The notes under the pieces: model-generated | What the model was told of the DNA's origin: nothing | Databases searched by the model: none | Seen by the model: the letters and a program-made list of their open reading frames with translations, nothing else | Origin: a virus | Direction: 5' to 3' (one strand) | IMG/VR virus record: IMGVR_UViG_3300006917_000131 | Coordinates: 1-26,060 of that record | DNA: 26,060 nucleotides | Translations under genes and position numbers: made by a program | In this document: positions 3,710-20,860 of the stretch, piece by piece | Layout: each line of letters opens with the position of its first letter | Position numbering within the stretch: position 1 is the first letter of the stretch

Positions 3710-6175
3710 ATGTCACAAACAGCGGCATCAATCGGAGCAGGATTTACAGGTAGTTATGTCGGGGGAGTATACAATTTTCAGGCTGCGGATAGGTCAATTC
3801 TAGGCAATGCTGCCGGAGCAACGGGAGTCATCCCCTACAGCAAAATGGTATGGGGTGGTAGTGGTGAGGCCAAGTTTGTAAACAACAACACGAACGCTCC
3901 ATCGGCTCTCCCTATAAATCTAACAACCGCTGAAAACCAGTGGTTGTATAATGTTATTTCAGACATGGATGGTGTTGTAACTCTTGCGAATGGAATTACG
4001 GCCATCAATATCACAGGCGTAGGGTTCTCAGGAAACATCGTTGTAGATTTGTCCCAAGGCGTGACTATATCTGGTGTTTCTGGTAATTTTAATCTTGGAG
4101 TGACTTTTGGAGCAATACCAGGATACACCTCTGGTGGCTATTTCATGGTCGGAAACTATGAAAATAATGCCGGACAGATTACTCCACTCACAGTCACTGG
4201 TGGTGTACAGATTGCCGGCGGAACGGTAAATGTCTCTGGATTTAATGGAATTATTAATTTCCCTGTCGCTGGCATCACGATATTTGGTACTCAGAACGAC
4301 GATTCCGTTTTAGTCACCTTTGAGGGATTGACTCTAGGTCTTGTTGGTGTCACTTTCGGAGCGGTTGGGACCACTTTTGGTGGAGTGACTTTTGGAACTG
4401 TGGGAGCCACATTCGGAACTGTGGGTGTTACTTTCGGTACGGCAGGCGTGACATTCGGAACTGCCGGTGTTACATTCGGCACGGCAGGTGTAACTTTCGG
4501 AGGAATCACTTTTGGAACAGCCGGTGTCACATTCGGTGGTGTCACTTTTGGCGGAATCACTTTCGGAACAGTCGGTGTTACATTCGGAGTTGCGAGGGTA
4601 CGACCAGAAACAGGCGTTACTTTTGGAGTGGTGTTTACTAACAAGGCAGGCACTCCACTAGGAATATCTGGATCTGAAGTTGTAGGTATGCCTGTGTTCG
4701 GGGTTTGCGGAGCCACAGCAATACGAGTGGAAATTGTAGGAGGATTGAGTGGAATCACGGTGTCTGGACTGGCATTCCCCTCTGAGTTTGGAATTAGTGG
4801 AGGCACAGTCACAGTATCAAACATTGTGGGAACCACTTTCGGTAGTGTGGTCATCGCTGGAACGCCCGGTGTTACTATTTCTGGAAAACTCATAGTAGGC
4901 TTGGACCAGACTTCATCCAACAATGTGGTAGTCGTCGGAAACCTGACCAGCAGACCAGTTTATAATGTGCCTGTTAACTGGAATGATGCTAGTGGAAATA
5001 GACTGAAAGACCATCTGTCTGGTCTTACCGTGGCATCAACAGTGTCTATAGGTGGACTCACTTTCACCTCTGGTTCCAATCTTCCTACCACATCCTTGTT
5101 GGGCGTTTCTTTCGGTGATGTTTCTGTTGGAAATGTTAAACTTGTAAACACCTCTGTTGCGATACAAGGCGATCCCAACAGTTTGGTAAATTATCCTGTG
5201 GGAGTTTCCCTAATAGGAATAGCAGCAACAACCGGAGTCCGAGGCGGAACAAACGACAGAGGCTTGGTTGTTGCTGAAAAGCCTGGTGCGCTCTTTGCTC
5301 TAGGCATGACCCTCAGCAACTTGTTCTTTGGTTTTACTACTAATCCCAGTGATAATATTGCTGGCTCTTGTGGTGGCGGTCAATACTTGTACCTGAAGAG
5401 CACTCCAGTATGTGTCACCACAAATTATTCTGGTCCAGCCGCCAATGGAACCATAAATGGACAAGTCAGCGTTCCTCTAAAGCAAGGCTTGTATGTTCAA
5501 CTCACAAAGTGGGATCTTATTTCCCATGTCCATGTGGGATACACGGCAAGTACCGTTCAGGAGTTCCGTCGTAATGCCCAAGTGCTACACAAGGAATACC
5601 AGATGGCTCCGATTTGGGCACATGCCCTGGACCAGTTCCGCCGATTCCCTGGAGTAACGGGCAATAATGGTCCAATACTGAACAACGATTTTGAGATGAC
5701 AGACAATTCTTGGCCTATGGATGGTGATGGTAGTGCTAGCATGACTCCAGTCCAAAAGCAGTATATCGGAATTATTGAAAAACCCACCCGCATATTCATT
5801 CCGTGCCGTGATGCTGGTGAAGTCTATGTGCTGGTAAACGGAGACTTCTCGGGACACGAAATAGGAGCAGGCTTCTGGGATTTGGAAACGAAAACTTGGA
5901 CTGCTACTACCCTGTACGAACGTTCCTACTACGCCAGTTCTTTCTACGGCTTTACTGCCGGCGAACCAACAATAAGCACTAGCGGAGTTCCAGGGGGTGG
6001 TGCTGGCAGTGGTGGAGAATACGACGGTTGGAGTGATGGTGGAGTCGGTTTTGGCCTCGTTGCTCCAGGAATTTCCGCAGGAACTTCTGAGAATCCTGGA
6101 AATCCCGGCACAGCCATTGCCCAAATACTTGCGGGTTACACCAACAACCCGTTCATACGGGTCTGGGGATACTAA
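3710..6175 (+). CDS. Large virion structural protein with GVTFG repeats
   Basis: The 821 residues are rich in Gly, Val, Thr and Ser and poor in charge. The N-terminal 200 residues contain beta-strand-like stretches with Gly turns. Residues about 213-307 hold fourteen T-F-G units spaced mostly 7 or 5 residues apart (GVTFGTA and GVTFGGITFG types), a pattern that suggests a beta-solenoid or fibrous stalk. A second beta-rich zone (310-540) has related G-V-T-I-S-G motifs. The C-terminal 280 residues are more globular and aromatic, ending in a Gly-rich linker and N-P-F-I-R-V-W-G-Y. I infer a tail fibre, adhesin or other surface protein. It stands alone on the plus strand and meets the minus-strand genes head-on at 6176-6186. 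No specific family is recognised. Confidence 0.8.
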   Translation: MSQTAASIGAGFTGSYVGGVYNFQAADRSILGNAAGATGVIPYSKMVWGGSGEAKFVNNNTNAPSALPINLTTAENQWLYNVISDMDGVVTLANGITAINITGVGFSGNIVVDLSQGVTISGVSGNFNLGVTFGAIPGYTSGGYFMVGNYENNAGQITPLTVTGGVQIAGGTVNVSGFNGIINFPVAGITIFGTQNDDSVLVTFEGLTLGLVGVTFGAVGTTFGGVTFGTVGATFGTVGVTFGTAGVTFGTAGVTFGTAGVTFGGITFGTAGVTFGGVTFGGITFGTVGVTFGVARVRPETGVTFGVVFTNKAGTPLGISGSEVVGMPVFGVCGATAIRVEIVGGLSGITVSGLAFPSEFGISGGTVTVSNIVGTTFGSVVIAGTPGVTISGKLIVGLDQTSSNNVVVVGNLTSRPVYNVPVNWNDASGNRLKDHLSGLTVASTVSIGGLTFTSGSNLPTTSLLGVSFGDVSVGNVKLVNTSVAIQGDPNSLVNYPVGVSLIGIAATTGVRGGTNDRGLVVAEKPGALFALGMTLSNLFFGFTTNPSDNIAGSCGGGQYLYLKSTPVCVTTNYSGPAANGTINGQVSVPLKQGLYVQLTKWDLISHVHVGYTASTVQEFRRNAQVLHKEYQMAPIWAHALDQFRRFPGVTGNNGPILNNDFEMTDNSWPMDGDGSASMTPVQKQYIGIIEKPTRIFIPCRDAGEVYVLVNGDFSGHEIGAGFWDLETKTWTATTLYERSYYASSFYGFTAGEPTISTSGVPGGGAGSGGEYDGWSDGGVGFGLVAPGISAGTSENPGNPGTAIAQILAGYTNNPFIRVWGY
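4349..4627 (+). repeat. In-frame tandem repeats encoding T-F-G units
   Basis: Diverged 21-nt and 15-nt units encode the fourteen T-F-G motifs. Units of the form (G)TTACATTCGG(A/C)AC recur with mostly synonymous changes, so the protein repeat is maintained while the DNA has drifted. Confidence 0.85.
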
Positions 6176-8195: not shown

Positions 8196-11100
8196 TTATC
8201 TATTCTGTGGACGGTTCTTGAATCTCTTGCCGATTCTCTTGGACCGCTTGGCCTTGCGAGAGATCATTCTTCTCTTCCCCTTGAGACGACGTGCCGCCCG
8301 CTTCAGTTTCATCTTTTTACGACGGAGAACTGCCGCAGGAACCTTTACTACCCGTCCCTTTTTATTGATACGATAGCCCTTGCGACCAGCGGTCTTGCCT
8401 CGCTTGACCTTTCCCCCACGGACACGAATGGTTCTTTTTATCCTTTCATTCAACTGTTCGTAGTTTTCTACAAGAATTCCACCGTCTTCTTCAACAATGA
8501 AATCGGCTCCGCTTTCCATGAGTGATTCGACTAGAGCATTATACTCAGAGTCGGTCATTTCGGAAAGGTCGTATTCTTCCCATTCCTCAGTTTCTTCATG
8601 TATACGATTAATGAAAGCATTCTCTATGATTGCCCGTACTGCTTCATCTAGTTTCTCTTCGTTCATTGCTTTCTCCTTTGATTTTTCTGTTTCTTCCTTG
8701 GTTGTTTTCTTTTTTCCTGGATCCTCTCCACTTGTCTGTTGCGATGCGCTTTTTCTTTCAAGCCCCAACTCATTACCCCAATCGTTAGATTCGTCTAGCA
8801 GGTCTTCAATATCCATGTCAACTTTAATTACAGAAATTTTTGTTGGGTTATCTCCTTTACCCATCATAAGATCCGCAACCGCCACAGCAGCCCATCTGTG
8901 ATGTCCATCCAAAACATACCCATCTCTGGAAACAATCAGAGGAGCCGTTAATGATTTTTTAGCCTTTGCTGCCTCGTTGTCGTTCATTCCCAACTCTTTT
9001 GGACGCATTAGAGTATTAGCCATGCCAAGAACTTTAGCCCCAACAAGTTGGTTTTGTGTGGCTTTCAGTTCTACAGAATCCATACTTTCTCCTTCACTAA
9101 ACTTTACGCCTTTGCTCTTCAGATGATCGAGGAATAGTTGTTCGGCATTAAATTCTGTTTCTGGTTTGAACTTTTCTCCCTTGGCTTCGGCTTGTGCTTT
9201 TCGTTTTTCGTTTTCTTGTGCCAGCAATTCTGCGGCACGACTACCAGGTATTACGGTTGTTTTTAATTGAGGCATATTATCTCTAGGAATACCCAAATCC
9301 GCACCGCAGAACAAATTGGTTCCTGGTATTGACACCGTACATATTTCAAACTCTGGATCTTTGCCTATGTTTTCGCCTCTTCTCTTTCTTTTTTCTCGGT
9401 CTAAAATAACCTCAGCAAGGGAAAACATCCGAGTTGCAACCTTTTTCTCTAATTTAGGATTTGTCCCAATGGCTTCTTCTTTAGAATCAGGACCGTCAAG
9501 ACCTGCTTCTTTCGCCGTTTGTCGATCTTTTCCGGTGGGTTTTATTTCCTGTGTTTTTTTAGCCGCTTTTCCTATTTCTGGATTTTCTCTTCCAGTAATT
9601 TTACCCCCTCTAGACCCTTCTACTTCTCTTTTCTTTGCCAGTGCGTCTTCTTTGCTTATTTTTCCAGCAGCAAAAGCCTTGGCAAGTGCTTCGGCATCAG
9701 GGTACAGTTTCTTATTGTAATATACCCTTTCTCCGTTTTTATTCTTGCCCGCCCAAGACTGTCCAGTGGACGCTTCCCAAGCCGTACCTGGCTTGTGTCT
9801 ATCGGCTTCTAGCAGTTCTAAGACTCGTACCACTTGGTCTGTGGATTCTTTCACAGATTTCTCCTTTTTTCTCCAGCCTCCACCTTGACCCTTGTACCAT
9901 TTTGCTGCCCAAGCATTAGCATACGCACTGGGATACACATCGAATGTGGATTTGGCTTTTGCTACGGCTTGTGCCCATAGTCCAGGATCTGTTGGTTCGT
10001 TTTCTTGTGCCTCAGAAAGTATATCGTCCACACCCTTGTCGGCTCTCCACATCTGGCAGGACCAATACCGTGCTTTCCACTTTGGTCCCACATCGTCATC
10101 ACATGAATGGCGTGACCGGAACGCTTTCAGGCGATCGGGGTTATCTCGCTTGATCTCCATGTTGGGGTCGCCGAAACGAACCTTCACAACATTTCCGTTG
10201 TCGTTCTTTACATAAACCGCAAACTTTTTCTTTTCGCCTGGTGTACGGAACGGCTTGTTCAGTTTCTTGCCTTCGGTTTCTCCGCCCTCTGTCTCTTCGT
10301 TCATGCCTAGTTTTGTCCGAGCCAAGCGAGCCAGTTCAGGCAACTTGATTTTTCCATCGCTTTCCGCCCACATTTCCCACATGGTACGAGTCATTTTGTT
10401 CAGGGCTTTTTGGTCATTTGCTAGTTTGGCTGGCAGCGCTTTTTGGGCAGCATCGAGCAAACGGGGATCTCCCATTTTCATGGTTGCTTCGTTCATTCCT
10501 TCTTTTACATCCAACACCCGTTGGCGGATAGCGTCATCACCCCAATAGATGTTCATTACATCCACATCATCAATCTGAACTTCCTCCCCACCTTTTTTAC
10601 GAGGGTGGAGTATGATGTAGTATCCCTTGGTGGCATAACCTTGGTCGTAGTACTGAAAACGCTTGAGTCTGCCGTCTACGGTTTTACGGTCTTTGGTGAT
10701 GATACGAACAGGCTCAGGACTCTTGTGCTGTTTGCTCATCCGTTCCCAGTCCTGCATACGGAAACCTTCGTTCACATATTCCGTCTCTTCCTTCACCTCT
10801 TTCCATGTGTCGCCAATCTTTGCGCTGGGCCAGTTTGCCACGAACACCTTTGGCTTTGACTTATCCTTGGGCAAGTATCCAGTATAGCCGCCGTACTTCT
10901 CGTCGGCCAACTTGCGGAGTTTTTTGGAACTGGTGGATTTTGCCACAACCTTTCCGCCCACAATCAGGGCATAGTATTCTACACCCCCACCGCTCTTGAA
11001 CACTTCGGTGATCTCTGTTTCTTCCTTAATCATCTTACCAGGAATTCCCATCATTTTGAACGCTCTCTGTATGGAGATATTCTTTTTTTCACTAGTCCCA

Positions 11101-11591
11101 CCCACAGACCAGTTGTGTGGTGCGGACTTGGATTTTGGTGGATTGTCGTAATCATACACCGTAAACACCAGTCCAGCAGAATTAATGAAACCCCATTCCA
11201 TTGTGGTCTGGTCGTTTTCGCTGTCTTCGTAATGTGGGCGACCCAGCACTTTGACCAACTGATTTACACTTACTCCCTCAAGCCGACCCACTCGGAAAGA
11301 AGGCAGATTGCCGTCCCATTTTTTGAAACCCATTTCTTTGACGGAGATTGCTTCATTGATTTCAACTTCTTCTTTTTTCATTTTAGCCTTTACTGCTTTT
11401 GCGTATTGTGGGTCTTTCATCATGGAATCAAAATCTCTACCCATGAGTTCCTTGAACTCTTCTTTGGTCATGTCTCCACGGAGCACCTGTAGCATGGCAT
11501 CCACGCCTGCGGAATAGGCACGACGACCAGCCCGTCCCATATGGGACCAGCGGGTGACTTCATCCAGACTAAACTCGTGAAAACCTTTCAT
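8196..11591 (-). CDS. Giant putative head-packaged polyprotein with serial protease sites
   Basis: The 1131-residue start (M-K-G-F-H-E-F-S-L-D-E) resembles T4 capsid-targeting leaders. Sites of the T4 prohead-protease type, [hydrophobic]-x-E, recur at module borders: LDE 11, INE 80, ITE 196, VNE 275, MNE 368, MNE 432, LSE 527, LLE 595, LDE 983 and LNE 1049, usually followed by Ala, Val or Gly and preceded by an acidic K-E-E-T-E linker. Recognisable modules are K-F-A-V-Y-V-K-N-D near 456-515, S-A-Y-A-N-A-W-A near 555-575, a W...YY module at 600-645, and a ParB/Srx-like domain at 841-937 with G-H-H-R-W (896-900). Residues 1051-1131 are Arg/Lys-rich and probably bind DNA. It is the last gene of the operon. 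The ATG at 11591 is chosen over an upstream frame start for the leader. Cleavage and packaging are inferred. Confidence 0.82.
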   Translation of the reverse strand: MKGFHEFSLDEVTRWSHMGRAGRRAYSAGVDAMLQVLRGDMTKEEFKELMGRDFDSMMKDPQYAKAVKAKMKKEEVEINEAISVKEMGFKKWDGNLPSFRVGRLEGVSVNQLVKVLGRPHYEDSENDQTTMEWGFINSAGLVFTVYDYDNPPKSKSAPHNWSVGGTSEKKNISIQRAFKMMGIPGKMIKEETEITEVFKSGGGVEYYALIVGGKVVAKSTSSKKLRKLADEKYGGYTGYLPKDKSKPKVFVANWPSAKIGDTWKEVKEETEYVNEGFRMQDWERMSKQHKSPEPVRIITKDRKTVDGRLKRFQYYDQGYATKGYYIILHPRKKGGEEVQIDDVDVMNIYWGDDAIRQRVLDVKEGMNEATMKMGDPRLLDAAQKALPAKLANDQKALNKMTRTMWEMWAESDGKIKLPELARLARTKLGMNEETEGGETEGKKLNKPFRTPGEKKKFAVYVKNDNGNVVKVRFGDPNMEIKRDNPDRLKAFRSRHSCDDDVGPKWKARYWSCQMWRADKGVDDILSEAQENEPTDPGLWAQAVAKAKSTFDVYPSAYANAWAAKWYKGQGGGWRKKEKSVKESTDQVVRVLELLEADRHKPGTAWEASTGQSWAGKNKNGERVYYNKKLYPDAEALAKAFAAGKISKEDALAKKREVEGSRGGKITGRENPEIGKAAKKTQEIKPTGKDRQTAKEAGLDGPDSKEEAIGTNPKLEKKVATRMFSLAEVILDREKRKRRGENIGKDPEFEICTVSIPGTNLFCGADLGIPRDNMPQLKTTVIPGSRAAELLAQENEKRKAQAEAKGEKFKPETEFNAEQLFLDHLKSKGVKFSEGESMDSVELKATQNQLVGAKVLGMANTLMRPKELGMNDNEAAKAKKSLTAPLIVSRDGYVLDGHHRWAAVAVADLMMGKGDNPTKISVIKVDMDIEDLLDESNDWGNELGLERKSASQQTSGEDPGKKKTTKEETEKSKEKAMNEEKLDEAVRAIIENAFINRIHEETEEWEEYDLSEMTDSEYNALVESLMESGADFIVEEDGGILVENYEQLNERIKRTIRVRGGKVKRGKTAGRKGYRINKKGRVVKVPAAVLRRKKMKLKRAARRLKGKRRMISRKAKRSKRIGKRFKNRPQNR

Positions 11592-11595
11592 CGGA

Positions 11596-12036
11596 TTATT
11601 TCTTTCCCGTAGTTGCATGTCGGCGGGCGGCACGTTCTGTCTTGTGAACCTTCAGGGTTTTGCCGGACTTGCTCACAACCGCTGGACCCTTGGGGTGGTG
11701 AAGATTGGTGAACAGGGGCTTTGCCTTTTTAGGCTTGGCGGCGGTTGCTTCTTCCATTTGACCAAAGAAAGTGTCCCAGTAGTCGTACACGATTTGAGCC
11801 GTGTCTTCACCCATCAACTTATCGTCCAGTCCGTGTTTCGCCAATATCTTTCCGATAAGAGGCAGTTTACGAACTCCAGTAGTCTTTTTGTCCCCCATTA
11901 TCGTCCTGATCTTGGCGACCGCTGGCTTCGGAATGGATTCCATAAAGTCTTCCAGTGCGGCTTTCATTCCGCCCTCTTGGAGTTCCACTGCTTCCTGTAT
12001 CTCTTGCTTGAACTGTTCGAATGTTTTTCGGCTCAT
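11596..12036 (-). CDS. Putative internal head protein with capsid-targeting leader
   Basis: This is a 146-residue protein. The start M-S-R-K-T-F-E-Q-F-K-Q-E-I-Q-E-A matches the T4 capsid-targeting pattern (K-T-Y-x-x-F...E then A), with candidate cleavage after E15 (IQE) or E21 (LQE). The middle (residues 30-95) is helical and includes a K-L-P-L-I-G-K-I-L-A-K-H-G-L segment. The C-terminal 45 residues are basic with T-E-R-A-A-R-R-H-A. The ribosome site AAAGGAAAAG fixes the ATG at 12036, 13 nt after the preceding stop. I do not recognise a family; head packaging is inferred from the leader. Confidence 0.75.
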   Translation of the reverse strand: MSRKTFEQFKQEIQEAVELQEGGMKAALEDFMESIPKPAVAKIRTIMGDKKTTGVRKLPLIGKILAKHGLDDKLMGEDTAQIVYDYWDTFFGQMEEATAAKPKKAKPLFTNLHHPKGPAVVSKSGKTLKVHKTERAARRHATTGKK

Positions 12037-12049
12037 GTCTTTTCCTTTG

Positions 12050-14290
12050 TTACTCTTGGTTTTTCTCTTTGCCTTGGCAGTGTGCCCGTTGTGAAAAGCC
12101 CTTGGGGTTCTCGCAATCAATGGACTGCTTGTATTTTTTGGACCATGCTTCCTTGATCTTATCTATACCCGTGGAAACACGAATGGGCTCCGCTCCGCCT
12201 CCAGGCTCGCCCTCACCCTTTTTAGCCATGCCGCCCTTCCGCTGGGCAGCCCGCTTACGACGGACAAAAGAGGAGATGCCCTTTTTGCCTAGTTTTTGGG
12301 CTTTTTGTTTGGACAGACATGCCGCATACGCTTCACCTTCCGCAGCATCGCCACACTTGCCGATCCGTTCACCCTTGGTATTGTACCGATCCCATCCTGG
12401 TTCTTTGGTTGCGCTCTCGTCATTGAACCATTTACCCAAGCCTGATTTGGCATACACCTTTTCCTGTAGTGCCCGTTCCCGCTTGGGGGAGTACTGTATG
12501 TGCTTGGTGCGGATACGGACCTTGCCCGGCACGGCCAATCGCTTGGCGTATTCCAAGTTTAGTTTGTTGTCATCATGGAACTCTATATCGTTGTAGCCTT
12601 GGTCGATCTGATCCTGTATCCAGTCGGCTTTGGCCCGAGCCACACCTTCATGGGAGCCACCAGATTTTGAACCTATGGCTACAACATCTACATCAATACC
12701 CATGCTTTCCAGGTACTTCTTTGCCGTATCTCCGTAGTTACGACCTGTAAGCACCACGGCTTTTCCGCCTCGACCAAGAACACTCCGCATGATTTTCAGA
12801 GTCGCAGGAATAGGACTGGCTTTTACACCCTCTTTGCCCAACTCAAATCTCTCATTGCCCTTGAGAGAGTAAGACTTGAATTCGTCTGTGGAGACGGTCG
12901 TGATAAGTTTACCTGTTTTTTTATCTACCACACGCACCCGAGCGGTGTCTACAGCAAGCGTATCATCAAAATCAAATATCCATAGGGGTTTACGAGCATC
13001 AGCCAACTCGGTAATTTCACTGTATACCCGTTCGTACAGGAATTGCTCAATGTCTGCGAGTGCTGCCATCTCTGCTTGAACTGCTGTCTCTGGTTTCTTT
13101 CGCTTAGGTCTTGTGCCTTTTTTCTTTAAATTAGCATACCGCTGTGCTTCGGTTTCTGTTTTTTGATACCGCAGTTGATCGGTGGAACCAACTTTTCCTG
13201 TCTTCTTTTTTCCGGCGGTCATTTTACCCGTGTTTCTTGCCGTGCCTGGTTCTTGATCTCTTGCCACGGCAGGTTTGTTTATTACTTTACCTTTTCTGGC
13301 GTATTGCTTTGCTGCTTGTTCATTATCAAAATAACGGACCCCAACACGACCATCTCCGACCACACCTGTTCTCTTGTTCTTGGCCCCAAACAACCCCTTG
13401 GAACTTCTCCAAGTTTCTCCCGGCTTGGCATTGGCAGCAAGATATTTTGCCTTGCTTTTTTCTGGCTCGGGTGATCCCTCTTCTGGTTTGGGTGCACTAG
13501 GTTCTGGTTCACCTTCAGTTTTAGGTGTGGTGGGTGGAGTAGCCCCTGTCTCTGCTGCGGCGGCTGCTTCTATTTCTTTAACTTTGTTCTTTATTCTAGT
13601 ATCTGCGGCCTTTTCTTCTGCTGATCCTTTTTTAGTCTTTCCTTTTTCTTTCGTCTGTACAGCAGACAATTCCATAGTCTTTCCCCAATTAGGATCGTTT
13701 TGACTCATCCAATTGGAGTTCTCTGTCTGAGCAGCAGAGATACGATCACTTCGCCTCCGCAGTTTTTCCAAAAGTTGAGGATCAGGACTGCCAGTGGCTT
13801 CGGCGTCTGCTATTCTTTTCTTGATCCGTTCGCTGTAACTCCGGATCAATTCTCCATGCGCTCGTCTGTCGTAAACATCATCACCAGGTTTATACTTCGC
13901 AAAATAATCCGAGTGCATGGAGTCTATGGCATCAAGATCTCTTAGGTTTTTTGTTCGTCTATCACTAACGGAAGTTAATTCACTTTCAATACCAGGAATT
14001 AGAGAGTCAACTCCCGCACGCTTTGCTGCTTCAAGATCTGCTTCCAGTTCTTTCTGTTTGGCAGCAAGCATGGTTTCGTTTGTCTCTGCTCCACGCATGG
14101 CAAGTTGTAGTTTTTCCCGAGCGGCACACGGGCAGTCGCCGCTCATCTTTACCGTTGCCTCCACCAAAACCTCCGGCATTTCCACGGGAAAACTACCACG
14201 GGACTCCATGAGTCCTAAAGTTTCCATTACATCAAAGAGGGTTTCAACCTCTTCAAGCAACTGATCGAGATTTTGAACTTTGGCTGACAT
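12050..14290 (-). CDS. Multidomain HAD phosphatase protein, putative internal head protein
   Basis: This is a 746-residue protein. The N-terminus (residues 1-45) is acidic and helical with LLE and LVE-A sites (cleavage candidate after E44). Residues 60-280 are coiled-coil-like and then Pro/Glu-rich. Residues 289-336 carry the W...YF...A module shared with four neighbours, and ITE lies at 426-428. A complete HAD domain follows: motif I F-D-F-D-D-T-L with D440 and D442, motif II V-V-L-T-G-R with T515, K554, and motif IV D573-D574. Then come a Cys-containing segment (W-D-R-Y-N-T-K-G near 633, G-K-C-G-D, C-L-S) and a basic stretch, ending S-I-D-C-E-N-P-K-G-F-S-Q-R-A-H-C. The HAD family removes phosphates; the substrate is unknown. 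The ATG overlaps the previous stop (TAATG). Confidence 0.85.
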   Translation of the reverse strand: MSAKVQNLDQLLEEVETLFDVMETLGLMESRGSFPVEMPEVLVEATVKMSGDCPCAAREKLQLAMRGAETNETMLAAKQKELEADLEAAKRAGVDSLIPGIESELTSVSDRRTKNLRDLDAIDSMHSDYFAKYKPGDDVYDRRAHGELIRSYSERIKKRIADAEATGSPDPQLLEKLRRRSDRISAAQTENSNWMSQNDPNWGKTMELSAVQTKEKGKTKKGSAEEKAADTRIKNKVKEIEAAAAAETGATPPTTPKTEGEPEPSAPKPEEGSPEPEKSKAKYLAANAKPGETWRSSKGLFGAKNKRTGVVGDGRVGVRYFDNEQAAKQYARKGKVINKPAVARDQEPGTARNTGKMTAGKKKTGKVGSTDQLRYQKTETEAQRYANLKKKGTRPKRKKPETAVQAEMAALADIEQFLYERVYSEITELADARKPLWIFDFDDTLAVDTARVRVVDKKTGKLITTVSTDEFKSYSLKGNERFELGKEGVKASPIPATLKIMRSVLGRGGKAVVLTGRNYGDTAKKYLESMGIDVDVVAIGSKSGGSHEGVARAKADWIQDQIDQGYNDIEFHDDNKLNLEYAKRLAVPGKVRIRTKHIQYSPKRERALQEKVYAKSGLGKWFNDESATKEPGWDRYNTKGERIGKCGDAAEGEAYAACLSKQKAQKLGKKGISSFVRRKRAAQRKGGMAKKGEGEPGGGAEPIRVSTGIDKIKEAWSKKYKQSIDCENPKGFSQRAHCQGKEKNQE

Positions 14291-15348
14291 TACTTGAGTA
14301 TCTTCTTGAATCCTGCGACTGCGGAGTTGTAATCATCGAGAGAGACTGGAGACTTCTTTCCTGAACTCTCCAACTTGAGTCTTCCTTGTAGACGATAGCC
14401 CACAGGACGAATACCTGTGTTTCGGGAGCCACCAGCACCAGGACGCATTTCGATGTCTATTTGCCCTTCAAGCATGGGAACTCCCAAGCCAAGGACATCG
14501 ACTCCGGTATGAAGCAATCCAATGCCACCGATCTGAATGTAGTGTACATTCTTTTTGGTATAATGTTCACGAATCCACCGTGAATCAAATCGGAGTTTTT
14601 TGTTTGACGGAATGACATATCCCAACTCCACAGCCCTTTCCCAATCCTTTGTCTTTACATTCAGCGGGAATCCCGTTACATCCTTGTAGAAAGGATCAGG
14701 CAGGTTTGCGAAGTGGTCGATGAGAGCATCAAGCCACCGCATAATTGGTTTCAGTGCTTCGTAGAAGATAGGCACATCGTCAGGATTGATCTTTTCCCAG
14801 TCAAACTTGTCCATTTTTCCAATCTCTGGATCTGAGAGCAAGTCTTCACGCTCGTAGCCTACAGAGGTTCCGCCCATCTGTGCTTTCGCATTCATTTTGA
14901 TTTCCATGTTTACCTGCCTGCCGTTTATTTGGAAAGACATGTCACCCGAGCCGACATTACTGAACGCACCACCAGCAGTTTCGAGTTTTCTGAAACCAGA
15001 GAACTTTTTCTCCAACTGGTCAATTACCTTTTCTACTTTCTTTTCGTAGGCAACACCACCTGCTCCAACGCTCTCTTCGATACGGCTCTGTGATGGTCTG
15101 CCCTTCATGTATTTGTGTACAGATGAAAGGTAATCGGCAGACTTGGTGATCTTGGATTGGACCCATGCGTCTAGATCCGTATCAGAGTCAATCATGTCAG
15201 CAATGGCTTCGGCATCATCAATGATGGAACGGAGTTCGGTACGGGCCATGTCTGCCTCGTCGTTTCCCACATCAAAGCCTTGAACCTCTGATTTTTCGGT
15301 CAAGACTTCAACTATTTTTTTATAAATATCAGACTTTTCTTTATCCAT
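14290..15348 (-). CDS. Putative PD-(D/E)XK nuclease, candidate head-packaged protein
   Basis: The first 92 residues are helical, with D-A-W-V-Q-S-K-I-T-K-S-A-D-Y-L near residue 60, a motif I recall from other marine T4-like phage proteins. Candidate protease sites are LTE 16-18 and IEE 90-92. The next part has the residue order of PD-(D/E)XK nucleases: E102 in a helix, G-S-G-D with D136, M-E-I-K with E149 and K151, and Q157. The remaining 195 residues contain beta-rich segments (Y-I-Q-I-G-G-I-G-L-L) that I cannot assign. The ATG lies 8 nt inside the upstream gene, whose end supplies CTGGAGG as the ribosome site. Nuclease activity is inferred from motifs only. Confidence 0.75.
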   Translation of the reverse strand: MDKEKSDIYKKIVEVLTEKSEVQGFDVGNDEADMARTELRSIIDDAEAIADMIDSDTDLDAWVQSKITKSADYLSSVHKYMKGRPSQSRIEESVGAGGVAYEKKVEKVIDQLEKKFSGFRKLETAGGAFSNVGSGDMSFQINGRQVNMEIKMNAKAQMGGTSVGYEREDLLSDPEIGKMDKFDWEKINPDDVPIFYEALKPIMRWLDALIDHFANLPDPFYKDVTGFPLNVKTKDWERAVELGYVIPSNKKLRFDSRWIREHYTKKNVHYIQIGGIGLLHTGVDVLGLGVPMLEGQIDIEMRPGAGGSRNTGIRPVGYRLQGRLKLESSGKKSPVSLDDYNSAVAGFKKILK

Positions 15349-16150
15349 TTGTGGCCTCCAGAAACTCTAAGAATCCCATTCTTTGTTTTGTAGTTCTATT
15401 CTCATTATGTATTGTTTGAGCCTCACCGAACACCTTTGGCTTTCCGAGCAAGATCTTCTCATGGGGATGACCACCAATAAGTCTGTTATACCAACCCATA
15501 TAGCCTGTTCGCCCGTCAGGATGCCGTCCGTGCCAGTCAATTTTCTTGCCCGTCAAAACCTCCTGTGCCTTGGATTTTGATCCAACGGTTGGAGATCCCT
15601 TGGACACCAAAATGTCCACTATTTTTCCTGAAACCTCGGCATAATTGCCACGGCTTCGAAGTAGACTTGCGGCAAGATCCAACATCTTTCGCTTGGCTTC
15701 TTTGGTCCCGTCCGTTGCCATTGTAGTGAGTTTTGTCCCAAATCTGGTATCCTTGCCCATCACTACGGCATCGGGGTCGGGGTCAGAGTCTGTGTTGACT
15801 AGTTTAATATCGGTATTGTCGCTGGGAACCGAGTCAGGATTCGGATAGTCGTGGTGTCCACCGATGGCAGCATAGGTGGCTTTTATCATATCAAATATGC
15901 TCTTTTTGATCCCACGGTCTTTCACCACTTCATCACGGTCAAGAACTTTCCACTTGTCTTTTTCTAATTTTGTGATCTGTGTTTCGGCGGACACTTCAGG
16001 CTTTTTCTCTTCTCTGCCGCTGGCCCATGCTTCGGCACTCTGGCGATCCGAGAAGTATTCGTACTGGCCCCCACGCTTGCCACGCCACCTCCCACCGTCA
16101 ATCTGAACGGCAGATCCGTCTCGTTGTTTTTCCCGTGGTTCTCGTTTCAT
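15341..16150 (-). CDS. Protein with W...YF module and C-terminal targeting-like sequence
   Basis: This is a 269-residue protein. Residues 14-45 hold the short module shared with four neighbours (G-G-R-W-R-G, Y-E-Y-F, S-A-E-A-W-A). Residues 95-238 form a globular region with striking motifs: V-N-T-D-S-D-P-D-P-D-A-V near 118, R-F-G-T-K-L-T-T, R-G-N-Y-A-E-V-S-G near 167, and H-P-D-G-R-T-G-Y-x-G-W-Y followed by G-G-H-P-H-E-K. The last residues (M-G-F-L-E-F-L-E-A-T-N-G) look like a capsid-targeting leader placed at the C-terminus. The same DNA carries the ribosome site of the next gene, so chance is possible. The start has only a weak ribosome site, 3 nt after the previous stop. No enzyme family is recognised with confidence. 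Confidence 0.75.
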   Translation of the reverse strand: MKREPREKQRDGSAVQIDGGRWRGKRGGQYEYFSDRQSAEAWASGREEKKPEVSAETQITKLEKDKWKVLDRDEVVKDRGIKKSIFDMIKATYAAIGGHHDYPNPDSVPSDNTDIKLVNTDSDPDPDAVVMGKDTRFGTKLTTMATDGTKEAKRKMLDLAASLLRSRGNYAEVSGKIVDILVSKGSPTVGSKSKAQEVLTGKKIDWHGRHPDGRTGYMGWYNRLIGGHPHEKILLGKPKVFGEAQTIHNENRTTKQRMGFLEFLEATNG

Positions 16151-16153
16151 TGC

Positions 16154-16849
16154 TCAAGACCCCAAAAACTTTTCTATCTCTGCGATTGTGTTCAACTCCA
16201 GAGGTTCGGTGAACAGCATGTCCCGTGGACGGTTTTTGTTGAACAGCATTACATCAATGCTCTCTGGTTGCCGTACCACGCTGATATATTCCCGTATCAC
16301 TGCCTTGAGTGAGTCCTTTCGGGACGATCCGAAACTCGCATTGGTCTGTATGCCTATGCCTGGATTTCCCTGAATGGAAAAATACACCCAACCCTTTTCC
16401 GTGGCAAGCACAGACACCGAGGGCATGGTGTCGTAGTATCCGTCTTTCATTATACGCATCACATTCTCGTAATCGTCTTGGTTTTTCTTGAACACACGGC
16501 TGGCAGCATAGGTGTATCGCATGGACTCCGTGGCCTTCCATTCGTCAATGGCCTTACGCATTTCCTGTTCACTGATGCCAAACTTTTCAGGATTCTTGAA
16601 TATCTGTGTTACATGGTAGTTTTTCGAACTCCATCCGAATGTGATGACATCCTTTACGGGATGCCACCAGCCGTACTGACCCCCGGTGCTGGCCCATACC
16701 CGCATCTCCCGTTCACGGGTTCGTCCCTTTTCCTTTGCCAATACCTGTTGTGATATGCGAGCCATGTTCGCCTTCGCCTGTTTTATCTGTGTGGGCGAAA
16801 GTCGAAAGGCTTTAGTTTCGGTAAGGTATTGTAGGAATGTTAGTCGCAA
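16154..16849 (-). CDS. Putative internal head protein, paralogue of the gene at 19822-20526
   Basis: The 231-residue protein starts at TTG 16849, with GGAG 5 nt upstream inside the previous gene. This start is chosen because it gives a capsid-targeting-like leader, M-R-L-T-F-L-Q-Y-L-T-E then T, with cleavage expected after E11. It shares F-R-L-S-P-x-Q-x-K-Q-A-K-A-N-M (residue 15 on), G-W-W-H-P, an R-K-A helix, S-R-x-S-L-K-A-x-x-R-E and a terminal E-x-F-L-x-S with the gene at 19822-20526. A central beta-rich part (V-L-A-T-E-K-G-W-V-Y-F-S-I) is present in both. The function is unknown. Duplication within the same cluster suggests the family is useful to the phage in more than one form. Confidence 0.78.
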   Translation of the reverse strand: MRLTFLQYLTETKAFRLSPTQIKQAKANMARISQQVLAKEKGRTREREMRVWASTGGQYGWWHPVKDVITFGWSSKNYHVTQIFKNPEKFGISEQEMRKAIDEWKATESMRYTYAASRVFKKNQDDYENVMRIMKDGYYDTMPSVSVLATEKGWVYFSIQGNPGIGIQTNASFGSSRKDSLKAVIREYISVVRQPESIDVMLFNKNRPRDMLFTEPLELNTIAEIEKFLGS

Positions 16850-16851
16850 TT

Positions 16852-17070
16852 TTACTCCACATACTTTTTGAGTTTGCTGTAGTAGTCAGGCACTTCTTCC
16901 AAATGATCCATAGCAATTTTGCGTGCCTCGGCATCGCTCTTGGTGTGCTCGTGTTCCACTTTGATGCCCATGTCTAATTGTCGTTGGATGTCCGAAGGCT
17001 CGACCCCGTGCTTTTTGGCAAGGGATTCCACCGTCCGCATCTCACGAATATACTTACGCCAAGGAATCAT
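16852..17070 (-). CDS. DUF5661-like small protein
   Basis: The 72-residue protein has K-K-H-G-V near residue 19, M-G-I-K-V-E-H-E-H-T near 34-43, and I-A-M-D-H-L-E-E-V-P-D-Y-Y-S-K-L near 52-67. The V-E-x-E-H...H-L-x-E-x-P-D-Y-Y pattern is that of the DUF5661 family of bacteria and phages, which has no known function. GGAGG precedes the ATG by 6 nt, and the start overlaps the previous stop (ATGA). Confidence 0.75.
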   Translation of the reverse strand: MIPWRKYIREMRTVESLAKKHGVEPSDIQRQLDMGIKVEHEHTKSDAEARKIAMDHLEEVPDYYSKLKKYVE

Positions 17071-17282
17071 TCTTCGCCTCCTTTGTTTCCCAAGACCTCG
17101 TTCTTGTAGGCATTTGCCACCGAATCAAGTACCTCTTGGTGTGTACGATTCGTGGGTGTGGGGTTTTTCGGTCCCTCCACTGGTTTGCCCTGTAGAATGT
17201 CTTCAATCATCCGTGTGGTTTCGCTGTTGGCGAGCCGTTCCAGTTCATTCCGATTGTCTGGTGTATTTCTCTGTACAGTCAT
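17067..17282 (-). CDS. Small hypothetical protein
   Basis: This is a 71-residue hydrophilic, mostly helical protein (N-E-L-E-R-L-A-N-S-E-T-T-R-M near residue 12; V-L-D-S-V-A-N-A-Y-K-N-E near 51). No family is recognised. It is coupled at both ends by ATGA overlaps, which supports its being a real gene of the operon. Confidence 0.65.
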   Translation of the reverse strand: MTVQRNTPDNRNELERLANSETTRMIEDILQGKPVEGPKNPTPTNRTHQEVLDSVANAYKNEVLGNKGGEE

Positions 17283-17437
17283 TTCACTTCCGCCTTTCGT
17301 TGTTTGGTTTCATCGCCCTTTACAAAGGGATTGTCTTTAACTTTTTTTCCACCCTGTAGTCCACGTCGTCCCCGTTCATAGTTTCCCTTGTCCACAGTGA
17401 ACGAAAAGTCGATGAATGAAATAGTCTGCCGTTTCAT
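17279..17437 (-). CDS. Small basic hypothetical protein (52 aa)
   Basis: The ATG at 17437 overlaps the stop of the 213-residue gene (ATGA), and its TGA overlaps the next ATG in the same way, so it fills the gap exactly. The protein starts M-K-R-Q-T-I-S-F-I-D-F and continues with G-R-R-G-L-Q-G-G-K-K and D-N-P-F-V-K-G-D. It is strongly basic and has no recognised family. The double coupling is the main evidence that it is expressed. Confidence 0.68.
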   Translation of the reverse strand: MKRQTISFIDFSFTVDKGNYERGRRGLQGGKKVKDNPFVKGDETKQRKAEVK

Positions 17438-18075
17438 CGGGGCCGCTTCCACTCATAGCCAGGCTTGGCCTTGCCTGTGTATTTCTGATATTCAGGACTG
17501 TCTTTGCCGTGTACTGCCAGGATTTCTGCCCCGTCCTTTTCCAGGTCTTTCACATACGCATCGAGATGCCGAAGGAACTCGTAGCGGTTTTCCGTTGTCT
17601 GTAGTGTGGTGGGTGGAAACAGCACCGCAAATTGCTGACCGCCCATGCGGAAAACTACAATGGAACGAAAAGCGTACTTGGGGTCTTCTTCACTGGCTTT
17701 CTTTTTGAGCGGGAACATTTTGTAGACATCCACACGCTCTTTCAGCATCCGTGAAGAGATCACATCCCATAGGAGCCGCTTTTCGTCCTTGTCTCCCATA
17801 AGCCTGTAGGTTTTTTCATTCCATTGGAACTCCCCGTCTGAACTCCAGATGGCATTCCATACGGGTGTAGGTATTTTGCCGTACCGTTCTTCCACGGCAC
17901 GGATCTTTGCCTCGAAAACAGCACTGTCCGTGGCAAGACCTTCAGGACGATCAGGATACGCTTTCTTGCCGGCGAGCGTCCACTCCTTGCGGGTGGAATC
18001 CGTTAGGCGTGGCACACTCTTCCAGAACTGTTCAAACTCTGGGTCTATAGGTTTATCCGTTTTGCTGCTCGCCAT
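17434..18075 (-). CDS. Hypothetical protein (213 aa)
   Basis: The frame extends 5' to 18135, but ATG 18075 (M-A-S-S-K-T-D) is preferred because it lies just after a GGCGGAGGG purine tract inside the end of the upstream gene and the longer form has no ribosome site. The protein is a mix of helices and strands with W-N-A-I-W-S near residue 72, M-F-P-L-K-K-K near 120, and a strand F-R-S-I-V-V-F-R-M-G-G-Q-Q-F-A-V-L-F near 135-152. The tail is basic and Pro-containing (W-K-R-P-R). No family is recognised, and no capsid-targeting leader is visible. Confidence 0.75.
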   Translation of the reverse strand: MASSKTDKPIDPEFEQFWKSVPRLTDSTRKEWTLAGKKAYPDRPEGLATDSAVFEAKIRAVEERYGKIPTPVWNAIWSSDGEFQWNEKTYRLMGDKDEKRLLWDVISSRMLKERVDVYKMFPLKKKASEEDPKYAFRSIVVFRMGGQQFAVLFPPTTLQTTENRYEFLRHLDAYVKDLEKDGAEILAVHGKDSPEYQKYTGKAKPGYEWKRPR

Positions 18076-18220
18076 TCCCTCCGCCCTTCTCCCGTTTGGC
18101 ACGGACCCGTTCGTTGTTGGTCTTTCGATTAACATAACGAATCCATGCTTCGTCCAACCGATGCCGATGGGTCATGCCGAAACCACCCTTGCCTTTACCT
18201 TTGGTGTTGTTGCTTGCCAT
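18053..18220 (-). CDS. Small basic protein (55 aa), first gene of the operon
   Basis: The ATG at 18220 is preceded by ACAGGAGCATCGTT, a good ribosome site. The protein begins M-A-S-N-N-T-K-G-K-G-K-G-G-F-G-M-T-H-R-H-R, continues with D-E-A-W-I-R-Y-V-N-R-K, and ends in a Gly/Asn/Gln-rich tail. It overlaps the next gene by 23 nt. The high Lys/Arg/His content suggests nucleic-acid or protein binding, but no family is recognised. Confidence 0.68.
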   Translation of the reverse strand: MASNNTKGKGKGGFGMTHRHRLDEAWIRYVNRKTNNERVRAKREKGGGNGEQQNG

Positions 18221-18239
18221 AACGATGCTCCTGTAAATG

Positions 18240-18464
18240 TTATGTATGGATACGGTTTTCCCGTGTGTGCTTGGTGAGATTGTATGTTTCGTTCCGATGG
18301 AGTTTCAACTGGTCCGAGCGGTAGTGTCGGATGGCTCCACCTTCACACAGGGCCACGCACCACACATCGTTTTCCCATGTTCCTCCGTCCCGCACATATA
18401 CCGCATATGCCTCGTCCCCATCCACGGTCACTACAGGAATGGGATTCGTAAACTCGTGAATCAT
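18240..18464 (-). CDS. Small conserved-looking phage protein (74 aa)
   Basis: The frame runs from 18554, but ATG 18464 is chosen because GGAGGA stands 8 nt before it. The protein starts M-I-H-E-F-T-N-P-I-P-V-V-T and has Y-A-V-Y-V-R-D-G-G-T-W-E-N-D-V-W near residue 20, R-H-Y-R-S-D-Q-L, and a polar basic end. I recall short proteins with this opening in T4-like phages of marine bacteria; no function is known. A CATAAATA late promoter lies upstream at 18526-18533. It may belong to the operon that continues to 8196. Confidence 0.72.
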   Translation of the reverse strand: MIHEFTNPIPVVTVDGDEAYAVYVRDGGTWENDVWCVALCEGGAIRHYRSDQLKLHRNETYNLTKHTRENRIHT

Positions 18465-18525
18465 GGTGTATTCCTCCATTAGTATCAGGCTAAAACCCCA
18501 CGGGTTTCGGCCTTGCTTCCGAAGG

Positions 18526-18533
18526 TATTTATG
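18526..18533 (-). promoter_or_regulatory. T4-type late promoter
   Basis: CATAAATA lies 61 nt upstream of the 74-residue gene and may drive the whole operon ending at 8196. Confidence 0.55.
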
Positions 18534-18597
18534 CCCGCTCTGGTCTACATACAAGACCCGAACATGGTGTTCAGGGAACTATACAAAAGGAAAGAAT

Positions 18598-18780
18598 ATG
18601 CTCATCAACTGGATCAAAACTTTCGTAGCGGATCAACGTGGTGCGGAGAGCACCGAACTCGCCATCACCACTCTTGTCGTGGCAGGCGGAGCCGTCGCTG
18701 GATATACCAGCGTCAAGAACAAGATCGGTGACAAGACCGACGACCTGCTCGGCAAACTGGACGAATCCACAGCCGACTGA
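18598..18780 (+). CDS. Flp-type pilin-like small protein
   Basis: This is a 60-residue protein. It starts with a short basic/hydrophobic segment (M-L-I-N-W-I-K-T-F-V), then D-Q-R-G-A-E-S-T-E, which resembles a class III prepilin peptidase site: cleavage after G would put Glu at position +5 of the mature form. A hydrophobic helix follows (L-A-I-T-T-L-V-V-A-G-G-A-V-A-G-Y), then a polar tail. This is the layout of Flp/Fap pilins of the Tad secretion system. AAAGGAAAG precedes the ATG by 3 nt; longer upstream starts lack a ribosome site. The gene is alone on the plus strand within minus-strand genes and has its own terminator, so it looks like an independent cargo gene. No clear promoter is seen. 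It could instead be an unrelated small membrane protein. Confidence 0.78.
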   Translation: MLINWIKTFVADQRGAESTELAITTLVVAGGAVAGYTSVKNKIGDKTDDLLGKLDESTAD

Positions 18781-18803
18781 TTGGAACATAACTTAAAGAA
18801 ACA

Positions 18804-18836
18804 GGGCTGGCCTTTGAGCCAGCCCTTTTCTATTTT
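18804..18836 (+). terminator. Rho-independent terminator after the pilin-like gene
   Basis: GGGCTGGC pairs perfectly with GCCAGCCC across loop CTTTGA and is followed by TTTTCTATTTT. On the minus strand the same stem is followed by TGTTTCTTT, so it may also slow transcription from the right. Confidence 0.9.
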
Positions 18837-18860
18837 AGTAATTTAATACTATTGATAGTT

Positions 18861-19286
18861 TTATGTTTCCCAATCTTCTCTACCAGAAGGGTTTGGCTCC
18901 GGATACTCCCGTCGCCCTCGCCGGTGGTCTTCTTGTTCCTTTTCTTTTTGTTTTCTTTTTTCTTCTTCTCTTTTACGTCTAATCGCATCTGCCCTTGCCT
19001 GATCTCTGCCTCTCGCCGCTTCTCGTTCGTTTTCTGCTTGTGCTTGGTTTGATGCTCTGACCCATTCTATTGCTTCATTTTTATCGTCAAAATATCTTAT
19101 TTCTTTTGTTTGTCTGTGCATTCCCCCGTACCCTGTGGGGGTTTCCCAGACTGTTCCTGGTTTTCGGGTTTTTGGGTCTGTTTTTTTCTCTTTGTTTGCT
19201 TTTCTTTTGGCAAAAGCCCGCTTGATTGCGCCAAAAATTTCGTTAATTTGTTCTACTTCTTCTTTGAACTGTCTGTAGTTTTTCAT
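18861..19286 (-). CDS. Putative internal head protein with W...YF module
   Basis: This is a 141-residue protein. The leader M-K-N-Y-R-Q-F-K-E-E-V-E-Q-I-N-E then I matches T4 capsid-targeting sequences; cleavage is expected after E16. Residues 42-79 carry the shared module (K-P-G-T-V-W-E-T-P-T-G-Y-G, R-Y-F, A-I-E-W-V). The rest (80-141) is a highly charged helix rich in Arg, Lys and Glu. The ribosome site ACAGGAGACACGGG is nearly identical to that of the next gene upstream, and the first codons are also similar, which points to duplication. The function of the module is unknown. Confidence 0.78.
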   Translation of the reverse strand: MKNYRQFKEEVEQINEIFGAIKRAFAKRKANKEKKTDPKTRKPGTVWETPTGYGGMHRQTKEIRYFDDKNEAIEWVRASNQAQAENEREAARGRDQARADAIRRKREEEKRKQKEKEQEDHRRGRREYPEPNPSGREDWET

Positions 19287-19301
19287 CCCGTGTCTCCTGT
19301 G

Positions 19302-19793
19302 TTAATCGTCGTCACGATTCATTCTCCGTCGAATCCGTTGACGTTCGGCCTCCCATTCAGCGTGTTGTTGAAGTTCTTTTCGCCAACTTTGTATCCATTT
19401 TTCTGCTGCTTCTCTAGTTTTAAAATACTCTATCATCAATTCCCCATGATGCTTTGTGGGAGCGGCTGCTCCAAACCCTGTAGGTGTTTTCCAGATTTCG
19501 CCCATTCTTCTTTTTTGTTTGTCCTGTGAAATTTGTGCTTTATGTTTGGCAATCTCGTTTCTCTTTTTTCGCCTCTGTAATGCTTGCTTGTATCTTTCTT
19601 TTCTTCCTATATTTCTCTCGATCTTTCTGGCTAATCGTTTCACTCCTCGTTTTATGAAACGAGGTGTAAGTGCAGATACTGCTTTTGCCACCGGTACGAT
19701 AACCGTTGTGGGGTCACCGATAGGTATTCCCGATGGGAGGCTTGCCTCATTCAGACTATCTATTTCTTCTTTGAACTGTTTGTAGGTTTTCAT
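19302..19793 (-). CDS. Putative internal head protein with W...YF module, paralogue
   Basis: This is a 163-residue protein. The leader M-K-T-Y-K-Q-F-K-E-E-I-D-S-L-N-E then A is close to T4 M-K-T-Y-Q-E-F-I-A-E then A; cleavage is expected after E16. A Gly/Pro/Val segment (17-43) is followed by a very basic helix (44-95) and the shared module at 97-136 (M-G-E-I-W-K-T-P-T-G-F-G, E-Y-F, A-A-E-K-W-I). The end is Arg-rich. The late promoter CATAAATA (19826-19819) lies 25 nt upstream, overlapping the stop of the preceding gene. The basic region suggests DNA binding inside the head, which is an inference. Confidence 0.78.
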   Translation of the reverse strand: MKTYKQFKEEIDSLNEASLPSGIPIGDPTTVIVPVAKAVSALTPRFIKRGVKRLARKIERNIGRKERYKQALQRRKKRNEIAKHKAQISQDKQKRRMGEIWKTPTGFGAAAPTKHHGELMIEYFKTREAAEKWIQSWRKELQQHAEWEAERQRIRRRMNRDDD

Positions 19794-19818
19794 CCCGTGT
19801 CTCCTGTGATAATCTATC

Positions 19819-19826
19819 TATTTATG
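19819..19826 (-). promoter_or_regulatory. T4-type late promoter
   Basis: CATAAATA contains the TAA stop of the upstream gene and precedes the ATG at 19793 by 25 nt. Confidence 0.6.
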
Positions 19827-20526
19827 AGTTCAAGAACCGCTCGATGGCTTCACGGTTTCGGATCAAGGTAAACGCTTCCTTGCCGCTGTCCGTGACCCCG
19901 ACCTCGATCTGGAACATCTCAGGCTTTTTCTCTGCGGAATCCAGTGTATCAAGAATCTCTCGGAACAGGGCTTTGAGGGAACGACGGCTTCCAGAGAACG
20001 CCCCGTCCATACGGATCATCCCGGATTTGCGGATCATAACCCACCCATTAGCATAGGCAAATTTGGTAAGGGTTGGGTCGGCGTCAATCTCACCGTCCTG
20101 TAAACGGTGTATAGTGGTTTCAACTTCCTCTTCCCATTTAGCCGAACCACGGGAGATGCCCACGGTGTACTCTGTGTAATCTTCCGCTGCCTTTCGGACC
20201 TGTTCTTTGGTCACTCCGAACGTGGCAGGAAAACGGGCAATCTGGTTTACATGCTGATTGCTGCCTACACGCCAGCCGAAAAGGTGGGCAGGCTTGTCGG
20301 GATGCCACCACCCCGTAATCCGATCACCGCTCAGATCCGCCCAATCAATATCAGGTTTTCGCTTGGGCTTTCCCTTGCGCTTTTCCCGATCGAGGACTTC
20401 CGCTGCGATACGGGACATGTTGGCTTTGGCCTGTTTTCTTTGGGCAGGAGACAGCCGAAAAGCCCGGGCTTGTGCGGCACGGGCTTCTCTCAGGGTTTCG
20501 GTGATGAACTGGAAAAGCAAGGACAT
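19822..20526 (-). CDS. Putative internal head protein, paralogue of the gene at 16154-16849
   Basis: This is a 234-residue protein. The leader M-S-L-L-F-Q-F-I-T-E then T puts the candidate cut after E10, the same position as in T4 internal proteins. It shares F-R-L-S-P-x-Q-x-K-Q-A-K-A-N-M (residue 23 on), G-W-W-H-P, V-R-K-A, and a C-terminal S-R-R-S-L-K-A-L-F-R-E and F-L-N-S with the paralogue. The ATG follows the previous stop directly (TGAATG). The core looks like a mixed alpha/beta domain, and no known family is recognised. Confidence 0.78.
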   Translation of the reverse strand: MSLLFQFITETLREARAAQARAFRLSPAQRKQAKANMSRIAAEVLDREKRKGKPKRKPDIDWADLSGDRITGWWHPDKPAHLFGWRVGSNQHVNQIARFPATFGVTKEQVRKAAEDYTEYTVGISRGSAKWEEEVETTIHRLQDGEIDADPTLTKFAYANGWVMIRKSGMIRMDGAFSGSRRSLKALFREILDTLDSAEKKPEMFQIEVGVTDSGKEAFTLIRNREAIERFLNS

Positions 20527-20826
20527 TCAGAAGCCCATCGAATCCATCCACAGCATCATTGCCGCATCATGGTAATGTCCAGCCTTGGCCTTGGCCTGAG
20601 CAAGGGGCAGTTGGGCTTCCATCCACTCAATGTGATTCTGTTTTTCTTTGAGTTCTCTTTTTTCAGATTTCATAATTTCTTTCCATCTTTTCACTCTGTA
20701 TTTGTAGTTTTCCTTGTCCTTGCTAAGAACCAGTTCTTTTGCTTGCTGTTGCTTGTTGGGGAGCATTGGTTTTTTGTCTTTGAGTCTCAGTTTTGCTTCT
20801 GTCAACATTTGCTTGAATGTTTTCAC
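20527..20826 (-). CDS. Putative internal head protein (99 aa), GTG start
   Basis: GTG at 20826 is preferred over the longer frame because GAGAGG precedes it and the product starts V/M-K-T-F-K-Q-M-L-T-E then A, almost the T4 capsid-targeting leader, with the cut expected after E10. The rest is a single long charged helix rich in Lys and Glu (residues 15-80), ending A-A-M-M-L-W-M-D-S-M-G-F. It lies 34 nt after the 151-residue gene and abuts the next one. Confidence 0.75.
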   Translation of the reverse strand: MKTFKQMLTEAKLRLKDKKPMLPNKQQQAKELVLSKDKENYKYRVKRWKEIMKSEKRELKEKQNHIEWMEAQLPLAQAKAKAGHYHDAAMMLWMDSMGF

Positions 20827-20860
20827 TAGTCTGCCCTCTCTCTTGTAGTTTGTTGAACCC

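Follow-up and report, generated by a model that had tools for sequence, protein, structure and literature searches.

The gene under study lies on the minus strand of a whole 26,060-base IMG/VR fragment, called the window below. It extends from an ATG at 11591 to a stop codon at 8196-8198 and encodes a protein of 1131 amino acids (ORF call P0001, 8196-11591), referred to here as the polyprotein. Since gp32 (7.7e-48) and gp59 (2e-13) are encoded nearby, the source phage is considered to be T4-like. No prohead protease, scaffold or capsid gene was found within the 26-kb window, which is an incomplete fragment. A Pfam scan of the whole polyprotein and of its separate modules (beads) gave no match above the cut-off, Pfam and PHROGs scans detected no peptidase domain in it, and searches of viral contigs with the whole sequence or with its last 179 residues returned no relatives.

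Sites of the form [LIVM]xE, with a putative cut after the glutamate (marked by a slash below), are found at residues 11, 80 (INE), 196 (ITE), 275 (VNE), 368 (MNE), 432 (MNE), 527 (LSE) and 595 (LLE), with a spacing of 64-116 residues from 80 to 595. Later ones are at 934 (LDE), 978 (MNE), 983 (LDE), 1011 (LSE) and 1049 (LNE), besides others. The first 11 residues, MKGFHEFSLDE/ (11559-11591), form a putative capsid-targeting sequence (CTS). They are followed, all on the minus strand, by bead 1 (residues 12-80, 11352-11558), which ends in KEEVEINE/, bead 2 (81-196, 11004-11351; KEETEITE/), bead 3 (197-275, 10767-11003; KEETEYVNE/), bead 4 (276-368, 10488-10766; KEGMNE/) and bead 5 (369-432, 10296-10487; KLGMNE/). 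Relatives were not found for beads 1, 3, 4 and 5, and bead 2 gave one weak phage match (E 0.02). Bead A (433-527, 10011-10295) corresponds to phrog_7595 and bead B (528-595, 9807-10010) to phrog_27331, with a weak match to DUF5872. Next come a bead with a W-x-[ST]...Y-[YF] motif (WEAS-type; 596-720, 9432-9806), which is also present in L096 and L099 with a site at the same junction before each, and a ParB/sulfiredoxin-like bead containing DGHHRW (739-955, 8727-9377); residues 596-978 contain two domains that no clear junction separates. An acidic spacer dense in [LIVM]xE sites (979-1049, 8445-8657) precedes, after LNE/, a polybasic C-terminal piece (residues 1050-1131 plus the stop, 8196-8444) of 82 residues with a net charge of +40 and a pI of 12. 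The pieces predicted within residues 12-595 range from neutral to basic, with pI values of 7.0-9.8. Beads A and B and the WEAS-type and ParB-like beads are unrelated domains with separate distributions, brought together in one polypeptide. For residues 12-432 and 956-1131 no convincing relatives were found, and the polyprotein reading of these parts is therefore by analogy.

Counted in the polyprotein alone, the broad [LIVM]xE pattern is only marginally enriched (29 occurrences against 21.3 in composition shuffles, P 0.035) and is too weak to carry a claim of cleavage. The corresponding values are 18 versus 11 for [LI]xE (P 0.015), 6 versus 0.97 for [LIVM]NE (P 2e-4) and 10 versus 1.6 for [LIVM][NTSD]E[AGSEV]. 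Because the last two forms were picked post hoc, we rested the case on tests made outside the polyprotein. The acidic linker [KH]EE[TV]E occurs five times, where 0.02 occurrences are expected, and always at no more than 14 residues from a [LIVM][NTSD]E site. The first-pass annotation, made from the sequence alone, had described a single 1131-residue protein with these sites, spaced by 64-116 residues up to LLE at 595, a repeated acidic K-E-E-T-E linker near them and an Arg/Lys-rich C-terminal piece of 80 residues. All of this held, the gene being on the minus strand, the linker lying far beyond chance and the C-terminal piece measuring 82 residues; the site at residue 11 had been overlooked.

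Bead A has hundreds of relatives among viral contigs. In relatives of beads A, B and C taken together, with bead starts defined by profile, only 2 sites fall within the 2,750 interior residues, against 67 within the 1,057 residues of the 15-residue stretch upstream, the background rate being 1.64 per 100 residues. An upstream site is present in 22 of 33 cases for bead A, in 8 of 8 for bead B and in 22 of 28 for bead C (expected, about 0.25). The regex profiles of beads D, E, G and I had too few seeds, and that of bead F (ParB) was too short for the start test. When the bead A relatives were split by criteria independent of the sites, only 1 of 9 controls, i.e. complete siphophages without an S77 protease or proteins fused to an XkdF-like protease, had an upstream site, versus 21 of the other 24 (Fisher P 1e-4). 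The latter are mostly fragments and have not all been shown to be T4-like, and common descent could account for part of the upstream sites of bead A. The linkers before this bead vary (LTE/AEYQ, LEE/AEFQ, ITE/AEHQ, LDE/GEYR), while the hydrophobic and Glu positions remain constant. In a boundary test that does not depend on any definition of the beads, the boundaries of local homology fall on sites more often than on rotated sites (z 7.0 for starts and 9.5 for ends).

The same beads are also found as single genes or in other chains. Bead A is a single gene in the siphophages CRP-2, CRP-901 and Kolga and is CTS-tagged in T4-like phages; the Kolga and CRP-901 genes start at the residue after the putative cut (MAKYQGR, MATYKGK), and in C48C1 the arrangement is MKKFKQYIDE/...LTE/AEYQGKK. 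In CRP-2, the counterparts of beads A and B, which adjoin each other in the polyprotein, are the neighbouring genes gp71 and gp70. A small CTS-type gene corresponds to the ParB bead in L027 and L011. Another bead is a CTS-led gene in L178 (MKSTRLTSILNE/AKKYDIG; LNE/AKKYDIG), whereas in L126 it is found at the C-terminal end of a polyprotein (LKKLVE/AKKYDIG). Further multi-bead chains are present in L016, L026, L027, L036, L044, L059 and L046, and in HTVC008M (AGE60464). A large family of proteins of 600-1,760 amino acids (L101-L135) was also observed, whose members combine a ParB bead with recurring [LIVM]xE sites and in many cases start with MNMNLSELINEILSEWAYRV. In five loci (L012, L013, L014, L028 and L076) an apparent XkdF-type prohead protease and scaffold follows bead A in a fusion, and CRP-6 (L008) has a similar one; we regard such fusions as a second route into the head, used in other phages.

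In T4, the CTS comprises 10-19 N-terminal residues with an aromatic residue at positions 4 and 7, and ends at a hydrophobic-x-Glu cut (PMC9026906). The start of the polyprotein meets these criteria, its aromatics at 4 and 7 being placed as in T4 IPIII; it exceeds the canonical CTS by one residue, with the cut after E11 and not E10. CTS-like starts were found in 7 of the 14 genes at 8196-21316 (0.05 expected in shuffles) and in none of the 12 other minus-strand ORFs of the window. Across the fetched loci, the canonical T4 pattern was met by 18 of 755 non-redundant ORF starts, versus 0.1 in shuffles. The neighbouring gene (11596-12036, minus strand, as are those that follow) has the CTS-like start MSRKTFEQFKQEIQE/, and 12050-14290 encodes a second multi-domain protein, of 746 amino acids, in which ITE/ precedes a HAD-phosphatase bead and LQE/ a GKCGDAAEGEAYAACL bead; in L011 this GKCGDAAEGEAYAACL bead comes directly after a CTS. 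CTS-like starts are carried further by the genes at 16154-16849 ((M)RLTFLQYLTE/), 16852-17070 (MIPWRKYIRE/, canonical), 18861-19286 (MKNYRQFKEEVEQINE/), 19302-19793 (MKTYKQFKEEIDSLNE/) and 20861-21316 (MKLFKEYQGLIE/). The gene at 19822-20526 begins with a near-CTS, MSLLFQFITE/, which is outside the tested pattern. It is a paralogue of 16154-16849 (35% identity), and a distant copy occurs within the L011 polyprotein. Inside this minus-strand cluster of putative cargo genes there is a small plus-strand ORF (18463-18780) that looks like a Flp-type pilin on visual inspection (DQRGAESTELAITTLVVAGGAVAGY), without a Pfam match.

An S77 prohead protease was found in three cultured relatives (C48C1, HTVC008M and immuto) and in 11 of the 17 ParB-bead records; the records of the nearest relatives L096 and L099 also contain it. 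In L176 and L177, likewise nearest relatives, its gene is grouped with gp20, gp22 and gp23, and the maturation site of gp23, whose position is assigned by homology, reads AINE/AAPYN or ALNE/AAPYN. The INE/A or LNE/A of the capsid protein is of the same tripeptide class as polyprotein sites 80, 368 and 1049. In both L176 and L177 the interval from gp21 to gp23 encodes a distinct gp22-like protein, with the polyprotein homologue elsewhere; in L178 the S77 protease gene and a scaffold-like gene flank that of the polyprotein. The polyprotein itself does not qualify as a gp22-type scaffold, which would be helical and acidic and have its gene between those of gp21 and gp23.

The ParB bead was modelled with good confidence (pLDDT 88, pTM 0.82), and Foldseek ranked ParB-N, Srx and Noc highest (E from 5e-3, with probabilities reaching 1.00 and a TM of about 0.3), so that residues 739-955 are predicted, on the basis of the model, to meet the criterion for a ParB/Srx fold. 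There is also a weak sequence match to free serine kinase, and DGHHRW with its active-site arginine is invariant in 35 aligned ParB-bead sequences, for which there are no activity data. Relatives of this bead lie within a structural (virion) protein of phage H66 verified by MS, and DdrB-like ParB domains are a recognised component of polyvalent proteins (PMC5512222). Site 934, which the first-pass annotation had listed among those separating modules, did not withstand the structure prediction: it is within a confidently predicted helix of the ParB-like domain and was rejected, being probably not a junction. Given this site inside a fold, and the 66 sites in 4,675 residues of ParB beads, which is about the background rate, the motif alone cannot be taken as proof of a cut. 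The model of bead A is compact but of modest confidence (pLDDT 73, pTM 0.62), with disordered first residues, and comparison with the PDB gave no meaningful match and no known fold.

The explanation we consider likely is that the polyprotein is a CTS-targeted internal-head cargo of a T4-like phage, cut by the prohead protease. The N-terminal 11 residues would act as the CTS and carry one long chain into the prohead core, where an S77 protease of the T4 gp21 type, encoded beyond the fragment, would cut after [LIVM]-x-E, often in acidic linkers (K-E-E-T-E). About nine pieces would result, seven of them of 64-116 residues, together with one of ∼42 kDa holding the WEAS-type and ParB/sulfiredoxin-like domains and the 82-residue polybasic piece. 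The spacer 979-1049 is inferred to be disposable, since it is acidic and site-dense and precedes the +40 tail; it would probably be shredded and lost, and we propose that the basic tail would be unmasked as a consequence. The freed pieces would remain with the DNA and be injected early in infection, so that a single tag would deliver several proteins in equimolar amounts. There are no data on cleavage or on virions for the polyprotein or any close relative; that it is cut and packaged and that its pieces are retained and injected is inferred, as are the tasks assigned to the beads. The first-pass proposal of beads cut by a prohead protease is thus supported comparatively, by site placement, single-gene beads, the CTS start, S77 in relatives and the INE/A or LNE/A capsid sites, the cutting itself not being shown.

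Elements of this arrangement have precedents. The T4 proteins IPI, IPII, IPIII and Alt are targeted by a CTS, processed by gp21 and ejected, and the polyprotein likewise has a CTS-like start, with aromatics at 4 and 7 and an [LIVM]xE end; like the T4 internal proteins, its predicted pieces are small and mostly basic, and relatives have the S77 protease. However, each of the T4 internal proteins is a single unit behind an N-terminal propeptide, whereas here one CTS precedes many beads with sites between them. Polyvalent proteins (Iyer, Burroughs and Aravind 2017, PMC5512222) are multidomain and predicted to be packaged and injected, as is the polyprotein, whose ParB/Srx domain is of the kind found in those of the phage P1 DdrB type. 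An embedded peptidase is present in about 36% of polyvalent proteins and is not obligatory (PMC5512222). Unlike polyvalent proteins released, if at all, by an embedded metallopeptidase, the polyprotein has no peptidase of its own that we could find, and since its beads are separated by sites of the prohead-protease type, we propose release by the head protease instead. Several sites per chain and an acidic site-rich stretch are shared with the T4 gp22/gp67/gp68 core and with the long propeptides of phiKZ and SPN3US (PMC5694885, PMC9026906), but in the T4 core the sites shred a scaffold, whereas those of the polyprotein separate conserved folded beads. Finally, the cyanophage T4-GC190 cytidylyltransferase, detected in S-SM1 virions (PMC3037559), belongs to the same bead repertoire and has a CTS-like start in S-BM3; it is short, unlike the polyprotein, and its processing is unreported in the bearing sections of that paper. 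The polyprotein thus combines the idea of the T4 internal protein (one CTS, one unit) with that of the polyvalent protein. Because processing, packaging and injection are inferred, it is not a proven member of either class. A search of the open-access literature, which leaves out most subscription papers, found no description of a cargo polyprotein cut by a prohead protease.

Other explanations should be considered. The one that survives best, although we judge it unlikely, is an uncut polyvalent protein, packaged and injected whole as the phage N4 virion RNA polymerase or giant PLxRFG internal proteins are, the LxE motifs being incidental. In its favour, multidomain head proteins delivered uncut are already known (PMC5512222), and the ParB bead is related to part of such a protein in phage H66. 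Against it, sites are concentrated before beads and nearly absent within them, and in phages that lack S77 or carry XkdF-type fusions bead A is not preceded by a site. Slightly less probable still is a scaffold or core protein like T4 gp22, gp67 or gp68, which would be shredded and exit the head, the beads not being cargo. The many sites, the resemblance of acidic 979-1049 to a shreddable pro-region, the cutting of T4 core proteins to fragments (PMC5694885) and the gene position in L178 would fit. But the beads are units that are both folded and conserved (one is ParB-like), A, B and C have no internal sites, relatives retain a separate gp22-like gene, and siphophages carry beads as single genes. 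As for an intracellular multidomain protein with motifs arising by chance in an E-rich chain, the near-chance broad count (P 0.035) and the lack of virion data allow it, but the CTS-like start in a cluster full of such starts and the site placement across relatives make it very improbable.

If the cleaved-cargo reading is true, phages load many injected proteins with one tag by the cleaved-polyprotein trick of RNA viruses, so that a single targeting tag brings several proteins at once into a T4-type capsid. The sites would then mark injected domains and turn many ‘hypothetical’ genes of abundant marine T4-like phages into testable candidates for injected proteins. A bolder reading is that such a modular cargo system is widespread among the T4-like phages that infect aquatic bacteria: beads would shift between single genes with a CTS tag and polyproteins whose length can exceed 1,000 residues, leaders would become linkers, and the head protease would be a general polyprotein processor delivering injected sets in fixed ratio. 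Taken as a whole, we lean towards this reading, by a narrow margin only.

Elsewhere in the window, a full-length tmRNA gene is found at 1380-1712 on the minus strand (Rfam RF00023, 99.8 bits, E 1e-39), beside tRNA genes. ARAGORN places it at 1232-1572, which overlaps two tRNAs, and the tag peptide it gives is therefore doubtful. The plus-strand ORF at 3710-6175 encodes a protein of 821 amino acids with a long run of short (G)VTFGT-type repeats and no Pfam match, perhaps a fibre or adhesion protein. On the minus strand, 22499-23341 encodes a D12-class adenine DNA methyltransferase (2e-18) and adjoins an unassigned ORF of 356 amino acids at 23345-24415.
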